NCBI GenBank assembly: GCA_026981985.1
Contig: JALSHZ010000103.1
Span: 1-52,804 of the forward strand
Origin: Gammaproteobacteria bacterium
Lineage (GTDB): Bacteria > Pseudomonadota > Gammaproteobacteria > UWMA-0217
Direction of reading: 5' to 3'
Length of the DNA stretch: 52,804 bases
Shown here: positions 31,986-52,804 of the stretch, one piece after another
Numbering within the stretch: the first letter of the stretch is position 1
How the letters are laid out: the number at the start of each line of letters is the position of its first letter
Made by a program: the position numbers and the translations under genes
The notes under the pieces: generated by a model
Database searches by the model: none
What the model was told of the DNA's origin: nothing
The model's input: the letters and a program-made list of their open reading frames with translations, nothing else

Positions 31986-32073
31986 ACACAAGGCAAAATC
32001 GTACTTTTTTCTTTCTGTGCGTCGAAAAGCCCTGAATGGGCTTTTCGACTCTCTCACAAGGAGGAAGCTGTCA
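31986..32073. repeat. Dispersed hairpin element, inverted relative of the 48.5-kb array
   Basis: GTCGAAAAGCCC at 32021-32032 pairs with GGGCTTTTCGAC at 32038-32049 in a perfect 12-bp stem. On the minus strand the segment continues CGCACAGAAAGAAAAAAGTA, matching CACGGAAAGGAAAAAGTGCG at 48.52 kb, and the other flank (GGAGGAAGCTGTCA) matches GGAGGAAGCCGTCA at 48.645 kb. The hairpin may also end nhaA and glmM transcripts, but no T-run follows. Confidence 0.7.
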
Positions 32074-48364: not shown

Positions 48365-48487
48365 CTTTTGATTACAGCCTGATTTATCGACGATTACAAC
48401 CACAGCATCACAAATCTGCCTGACGGCATGACCGACTCAAGTTTCGGTATTCCGCGTTGCAAGTCGGCAACCACCCACTTGCGGAGG

Positions 48488-48635
48488 GTGTCGTAAAAGC
48501 CCATCCGGGGCTTTGCGACACACGGAAAGGAAAAAGTGCGATTTTTCCTTTCCTCACAGATTCAGCAACTTAGTCGTTGCTGAATCTGGCGGCACTTCCT
48601 TGTGCCGCGAGAGGGTGTCGTTTTGCGACACCCTC
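48488..48635. repeat. Array of five strong hairpins upstream of nadK
   Basis: Five stems follow each other in 148 bp: 48488-48521 (GTGTCG...CGACAC with inner AAAGCCC/GGGCTTT), 48524-48553 (GGAAAGGAAAAA/TTTTTCCTTTCC), 48559-48586 (GATTCAGCAAC/GTTGCTGAATC), 48589-48608 (GCGGCAC/GTGCCGC) and 48611-48635 (GAGGGTGTCG/CGACACCCTC). The stems are perfect or nearly so. The gap between hrcA and nadK (460 bp) otherwise holds only the IS-like terminal repeat. Parts of the array match 31986-32073. It could be a mobile hairpin element or encode a structured RNA. Confidence 0.75.
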
Positions 48636-48716
48636 GCGCGAAAGGAGGAAGCCGTCAAAATCGATTGCAGTGCGCTACCAACAGCAGCAGTGACATTCGA
48701 ATCATCAATATTGGGG

Positions 48717-52267: not shown

Positions 52268-52621
52268 AGCGAACTCTCCTATAACAGCTATGCCGATTAT
52301 ATGGATTTCGCCGTGGCTTTGCTCGATTGAATCCCGCATGAAGATGCTGAAACCGATCCAGGACGATTACCTCGGCCTGCTTGGGGTCGGCGGGAAGTTC
52401 CCGGGACAGTCGTGTTTGAATCAGGCGTATCCGGTCCAGCTCATACTGCTGGAGATCCATTTGCGGTGAAATGGCTGCCGTATTCGCCGCTATCGGGTGC
52501 CCGCGCAGAGGGTTGGGGCGCTTCCAAGTAACTTCCCACCAAACCTGTCGCATGGCAACCACGCCCCCCCCTTTGCCCGCCCGAGCATCGCAGGCCCAGT
52601 CGGGATCAGCCCGAAGGGGCA

Positions 52622-52670
52622 GGCCATGGATGGCCTGCGTCGGCCGTCACGAAGGGACGTGTCGGCCGAC
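52622..52670. repeat. Structured GC-rich repeat in the right end gap
   Basis: GGCCATGGATGGCC (52622-52635) is a small palindrome, and GTCGGCCGTCACG (52639-52651) pairs with CGTGTCGGCCGAC (52658-52670) at 12 of 13 positions. The 537-bp right end (52268-52804) holds no gene I can support; it resembles interspersed repeat sequence. Confidence 0.5.
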
Positions 52671-52804
52671 CCCCGGCTGGGCCGAGAAGCGCAGGAAGCG
52701 GCTTTGGCATCCTGCGTCGCTCTAGCTCCTCCATCCCTGGAGTCGACAGCGGGGAATCGGGGCGGCATTGATGTACATGGATGTACTGAATGCTGCGATT
52801 GCAG

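Follow-up and report, generated by a model that had tools for sequence, protein, structure and literature searches.

We analysed a 52,804-nt stretch of gammaproteobacterial DNA, referred to below as the window, in which five adjacent hairpins (H1 to H5, Table 1) lie at positions 48488-48635. Pfam identifies the flanking genes as those of HrcA (minus strand) and NAD kinase (plus strand), which places the hairpins in a divergent gap. A sequence-only reading had described five consecutive strong hairpins at this place, and folding of the region on both strands confirmed them: the folding energy of 48470-48650 is −105 kcal/mol on the plus strand and −97.5 kcal/mol on the minus strand, with z about −11 on both, and 0 of 200 shuffles were as stable. 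The 152-nt stretch holding the element (−91.6) ranks second in stability among 693 sliding segments of 152 nt (mean −46.5, sd 9.2). Stems of 7 to 13 bp had been proposed, close to the 7 to 14 bp or so found here; the gaps, announced as 2 to 5 nt, turned out slightly tighter at 0 to 3 nt (2, 3, 0 and 2 nt for H1-H2, H2-H3, H3-H4 and H4-H5).

No protein gene was found in the element; the one ORF listed across it, of 77 aa, is due to chance. A simple scan detected no promoter within it, and a terminator scan gave 2 weak matches against 0.7 expected. No Rfam family scored above threshold at the element, and only two tRNAs reached the gathering score in the whole window; RsmW (CL00106) matched the minus strand at 24.8 bits (E 0.16), below its gathering score of 52 bits.

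Table 1. Coordinates of the element, its parts and related features in the window.
Feature	Position	Strand	Remarks
Whole element, 152 bp	48484..48635	(−), proposed as functional RNA	Defined from own-genome copies; ends at inverted repeats
Left terminal inverted repeat, GAGGGTGTCGTAAAA	48484..48498	(+)	93% complementary to 48621-48635
Right terminal inverted repeat, TTTTGCGACACCCTC	48621..48635	(+)	Pairs with left end
Left 5-bp target duplication, ttgcg, partly decayed	48479..48483	none	3/5 identical to right copy
Right 5-bp target duplication, gcgcg	48636..48640	none	From fixed element ends and empty G001 gap
H1	48488-48521	(−) proposed	Stem about 14 bp with bulge; minus-strand loop has GGA
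H2	48524-48553	(−) proposed	Stem about 12 bp; plus-strand loop GTGYGA, conserved
H3	48557-48588	(−) proposed	Stem about 13 bp, strongly covarying; loop variable
H4	48589-48608	(−) proposed	Stem about 7 bp; minus-strand loop AAGGAA, an ANGGAN hexaloop with C-G closing pair
H5	48611-48635	none assigned	Stem about 11 bp; palindromic right end of element
Old truncated copy of element (H1-H2 part)	31990..32055	(−)	84% over 67 nt, BLAST E 5e-14

Copies, ends and range of the element

The element starts 4 nt to the left of the hairpins, because an unpaired GAGG there is part of the inverted end, a 15-nt repeat (GAGGGTGTCGYAAAA) whose boundary is common to the copies in the same genome (G000). There, a DNA search recovered 13 near full-length copies (89-100%, covering 146 or more of the 181 nt) and another copy that covers 136 nt at 85%; further copies are partial. 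R1, a covariance model of hairpins 2-4 from which H1 was left out, matched G000 at 32 places at E ≤0.1, about 19 of them in sense and the remainder antisense shadows of the same copies; two sense matches, on contig C79, are halves of one copy, hence about 18 loci. With the element ends fixed, the 5-bp flanks were identical at all five positions in 8 of the 12 own copies checked. One other copy matched at 4/5, two at 3/5 (the window copy included) and one at 1/5, a one-base shift restoring five in the latter.

Comparison with the same gap in relatives, a check that the sequence-only reading had proposed, proved informative. In the genus relative G001 the orthologous hrcA-nadK gap is without the element: what reads CACTTGCG, element, GCGCGAAAGGAGGAAGCC in the window reads CTCTGCGAAAAAGCAGGAATCC in G001, the site being matched by eye since the automatic alignment left the gap unaligned. 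Dispersed copies, inverted ends, 5-bp duplications and the empty G001 gap together leave hardly any doubt that 48484-48635 is a MITE that has landed between hrcA and nadK. Of the possibilities first raised for this locus, a composite hairpin repeat is thus the one that held. Related copies, whose absence elsewhere had been named, along with that of a transcript, as the outcome that would refute the sequence-only reading, are many. The target duplications indicate a DDE-type, double-strand mechanism. Solo H5 palindromes with 5-bp duplications of their own are present at C130:1841 and C102:4683; these look like remnants of deletion between direct repeats of both element ends.

Ends and duplications were compared over 167 copies (171 rows before identical contexts were counted once; 207 became 204 for the loop counts below), after removal of three antisense shadows (L255:1443-1534:-, L214:1017-1091:+, L285:1303-1383:-) and one fragment (L157:852-910:+). 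Two groups were distinguished. Group I (G000, G001, G003, a Sedimenticola bin and G255) comprises 41 copies with ends GAGGGTGTCGCAAAAG; the automatic call gave duplications of 5-7 bp in 24 of these, the other 17 having 3 bp or no duplication. Its empty sites are often palindromic (mean folding z −1.50, 10/24 below −2). Group II comprises 126 copies from all other genomes, with ends such as GGAAACTCTGAATAAGTCC, GGTAACCTCTAAAAATGCC and CAGGTTGTTGAAAAAGTCC. Here duplications were of 4 bp in 62 cases, 47 of these being YTAR, and of another length in 12, with none found in 52; palindromes are not a feature of these empty sites (mean z −0.15, 6/68 below −2).

YTAR is the target of the IS5 group. Two insertion sequences with a PF01609 transposase have ends similar to those of group II, one in G000 itself (L126) and one in JACPPA (L127, TTAG flanks). 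No transposase flanked by GAGGGTGTCGCAAAAG was found in G000, nor among the places listed for G001 and G003, in draft genomes. The window copy is not classed as an IS5-derived MITE: its subgroup duplicates 5 bp and has other ends, the 4-bp YTAR duplications being those of group II. Across lineages, then, ends and duplications differ and the hairpin body is retained; one hairpin body appears to have been moved by two transposition systems.

Group I insertions (e.g. L037, L116 and L006) tend to lie in the loops of terminator-like palindromes, as hairpins inside hairpins. In G022, a single-contig genome, H1-H4 units stand head to tail with a period of 124 (L155, 1377-1709), and no H5 was seen between these units. 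Another MITE-like family of the own genome has ends of 18 nt, AACTCAAGTTTCGGAGTT, found at 86 sites with at most 2 mismatches, several of them as inverted pairs spanning about 381 bp (e.g. C31:16715-17095, C126:710-1090 and C73:4018-4398). A decayed end of this family lies at 48434-48451 of the window, about 33 bp left of the element, and one five-hairpin element seems to have been split by the insertion of a copy, C79:4051-4431. By eye, near-identical tandem units of about 180 bp were seen beside tRNA-like sequence on C107 (L072, about 1525-2090), each with a AAAAAGCCCGC..GCGGGCT hairpin.

By DNA search, the element was present in 5 of 56 genomes (its own and relatives). A combined H2/H4 pattern found 53 stretches in metagenome-assembled genomes, whose bins, which can be contaminated, were assigned to Gammaproteobacteria, Thiotrichales, Candidatus Muproteobacteria, Sedimenticola and Halothiobacillus. 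The covariance search, also suggested at the outset, found many relatives: R1 was positive in 61 of 369 sampled gammaproteobacterial genomes (47 of 272 genera), 20 of the 61 having at least 12 scored candidates each. In a sample of the phylum, 42 of 398 genomes were positive; 40 lay outside Gammaproteobacteria, 34 of them in family f207. Plasmids and phages gave no match with one group II copy as query, and viral contigs gave 0 matches with one pattern. Sites are mostly intergenic, a long ORF containing 10 of 131 classifiable copies. Among 121 copies there was no orientation bias relative to genes (++ 30, −− 37, −+ 30, +− 24) and no preference for convergent gaps (24/121). The family, absent from Rfam, is a common structured repeat, even without CsrA binding.

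Conservation of the fold, its strand and its loops

An alignment of 31 diverse cores (A2) had 92.5% of cells paired, two-sided changes at 19 of 32 pairs and a covariation score of 0.384, against at most 0.156 for slid versions. For 41 rows mostly outside Gammaproteobacteria (A5), the score was 0.553 against at most 0.101, and 29 of 32 pairs had changed on both sides, counts that lean toward the model since the rows were fitted to it. Of 55 full elements folded singly, most reproduced the five hairpins, the exceptions being a few that are decayed or rearranged (e.g. own_L013b, own_L014, G003_L035). Stem covariation as a sign of selection is subject to a caveat, as template switching between hairpin arms can yield paired changes without selection, according to the text available from PMC8794818.

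In the H2 loops of all copies, positions 2 and 6 seem by eye to co-vary (T..A or C..G); this hairpin might thus be capped by a GYG triloop, an unpaired purine standing next to it.

Wobble pairs were used to compare the strands, those of a minus-strand RNA appearing in plus letters as A-C and not G-T. Counted as distinct events per lineage without tree correction, there were 121 A-C (minus) against 72 G-T (p 0.0005), and 35 lineages lean to the minus strand against 13 to the plus strand, with 10 ties (p 0.002). The excess is found in H2 (45 vs 18) and H3 (55 vs 32); H4 shows no bias (21 vs 22). In alignment A3 alone, cells numbered 64 against 37, whereas counting each pair and type once gave 21 against 22 and so no bias. 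R1, being built on plus letters, would favour G-T, the opposite of what was observed. The wobble bias agrees with a fold of the strand that carries ANGGAN, with the reservation that DNA tolerates G-T as well. The element body is likely under selection as a single-stranded fold of the minus strand. Covariation, conserved loops and this bias lend indirect support to a structured RNA, which the sequence-only reading had listed among its candidates.

The predicted minus-strand loops contain GGA in 184 of 203 copies at H1 and in 196 of 203 at H4, against 1/202 at H2, 0/203 at H3 and 4/203 at H5 (together 5/608). The H4 loop belonged to R1 and to one search pattern; H1 was in no model, so that its GGA was not ascertained by R1. 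Leaving out the loci picked by pattern (L073-L125), the counts were 148/163 for H1 and 156/163 for H4, and 1/162, 0/163 and 4/164 for H2, H3 and H5. Among 90 distinct forms of H4, 83 have the hexaloop ANGGAN and 87 a 5′ closing C; the A, G, G and A positions are 97-99% constant, whereas any of the four letters occurs at N and at the last position. Outside Gammaproteobacteria the H4 stems differ (in plus letters GCAGGCC, ACCGGCC, CCGAAAT..ATTTCGG) and the loop is retained. H1 loops occur both as hexaloops and in forms without the N; that of the window copy is CGGAU, not ANGGAN.

The H4 loop of the minus strand matches the high-affinity CsrA/RsmE consensus: in the part of PMC4005645 consulted, such a site consists of an ANGGAX hexaloop sitting immediately on its stem, N and X being variable and looped out, the RsmE structure has a C-G closing pair, and weaker sites are without the N. 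The own genome gave three matches to csrA. Presence of csrA showed no link with the element (55 of 61 carriers, 257 of 308 non-carriers, p 0.24). In 6 of the 61 carriers no csrA was detected, which may reflect draft gaps, and most of the copies shown from these, though partly decayed, keep the loop; such retention may speak slightly against a role of CsrA.

A third, longer repeat is found at 52541-52804 of the window (the contig end), in L007 at 1862-2460 and in L321 at 744-1290. It has perfect hairpins of 7-9 bp with loops ATGGAT or ATCCAT, of the ANGGAN type, in both orientations, and CsrA-type hairpins may thus be carried by this repeat as well.

Possible roles of the hairpin body

Our tentatively preferred explanation, which could well be right, is a MITE that relies on a DDE-type transposase and whose body would be kept as a minus-strand, CsrA-binding RNA module. 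The non-autonomous element would be mobilised in trans, and an insertion transcribed by read-through in the minus direction would yield an RNA folding into the five hairpins. The GGA loops of H1 and H4, of CsrA/RsmE type, could then be bridged by one CsrA dimer, and the RNA might act on CsrA, by binding or titration, or CsrA might protect or regulate the RNA. The sequences themselves show the mobility signature, the extent of the family, its fold, the conserved loops and the strand bias; transcription, CsrA binding and a benefit to element or host are what we infer. Classic Csr sRNAs carry more GGA hairpins than the two present here, which speaks against this explanation. In a broader version, which we regard as rather unlikely, the family would be one of phylum-wide mobile CsrA decoys, their conserved two-site, Rsm-like module having been carried by two or more unlike transposition systems; genomes would thereby gain and multiply CsrA-binding sites and rewire or buffer the Csr network.

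The main rival, quite possible in our view, is a purely selfish MITE with no RNA function, in which template switching during replication, copying one arm onto the other, keeps the stems paired as DNA and ancestry keeps the short loops alike. It stands so high because no promoter, no orientation bias and no csrA link were found and most loops are kept in the carriers where csrA was not detected. The absence of orientation bias is what a plain selfish element would show; two-sided stem changes are frequent among copies within one genome (64, vs 116 one-sided), as template switching would give, and the many copies of equal score in the complete genome G131 fit a recent spread. Against such an element stand loops more conserved across classes than the stems and the confinement of GGA to H1 and H4, and template switching predicts no strand asymmetry of wobbles.

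The loops might instead be read on single strands by another factor, e.g. a host protein aiding transposition or replication of the element. The H2 loop GTGYGA, likewise conserved and without a CsrA motif, would suit such a factor, and the wobble bias is compatible with a single strand of DNA too, where G-T pairs likewise wobble. Both H1 and H4 nevertheless match the CsrA vocabulary, free N positions included, and the double-strand transposition indicated by the duplications has no need of internal hairpins, which makes this reading improbable. Still less probable is an mRNA insulator or terminator, in which the hairpins would either halt or stabilise transcripts reading through from either side, a role that has been proposed for REP/ERIC-like repeats; folds very stable on both strands and mostly intergenic sites would be in keeping with it, but loop conservation and strand asymmetry stay unexplained, terminator matches are weak and convergent gaps are not favoured. 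A target for single-strand recombination of the integron attC or IS200/IS605 kind, the last of the earlier suggestions, has only hairpin density in its favour and can practically be discarded: the element has neither R boxes (GTTRRRY / RYYYAAC, either strand) nor a REP/TnpA-REP head (GTAG or CGTC beside a palindrome), and the family has inverted ends with 5-bp or YTAR duplications, of DDE type.

The usual view of bacterial MITEs is that they are junk or, by chance, promoters. In the present family, ends and duplications change but the MITE body persists across classes, covaries in the manner of an RNA and has loops that match the site of a global regulator. If CsrA binds the element, the number of regulatory sites would be a transposition trait; if it does not, the family would be well suited to telling selection on RNA apart from the upkeep of hairpins by template switching.

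Comparison with known systems

An element of this kind was not found in the open-licence PMC literature; the portions consulted of a MITE review (PMC10969869), a Thiomargarita MITE paper (PMC4853749) and a Beggiatoaceae repeat paper (PMC4679880) describe other elements. With IS5-family insertion sequences the element shares, in group II, YTAR 4-bp duplications (47/62) and ends like GGAAACTCTGAATAAGTC; it differs from them in having no transposase and, for the subgroup of the window, in its other ends and 5-bp duplications. Like RsmX/Y/Z/W and CsrB/C, as presented in the excerpt of PMC4005645, it has several hairpins, two of them with A(N)GGAX-type loops on stems of the minus strand. Unlike these RNAs it is mobile and multicopy, has no promoter of its own that we could see and only two GGA loops, and lies below every Rfam threshold.

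The Coxiella QMITEs come close in that MITE copies are transcribed as structured small RNAs (PMC5896051, in the text seen), as would be the case for the element. They differ in being reported for one species, QMITE1 being without orthologues elsewhere, and the same portion of text mentions no CsrA-type loops. Correia, ERIC and QMITE1/2, in the sections consulted of PMC10969869, are likewise short, without protein, intergenic, with inverted ends and target duplications, and give highly structured transcripts. Compared with their description there, the present element stands apart by its five separate covarying hairpins, its conserved loops, its sharing across classes, and its two types of ends and duplications on one body.
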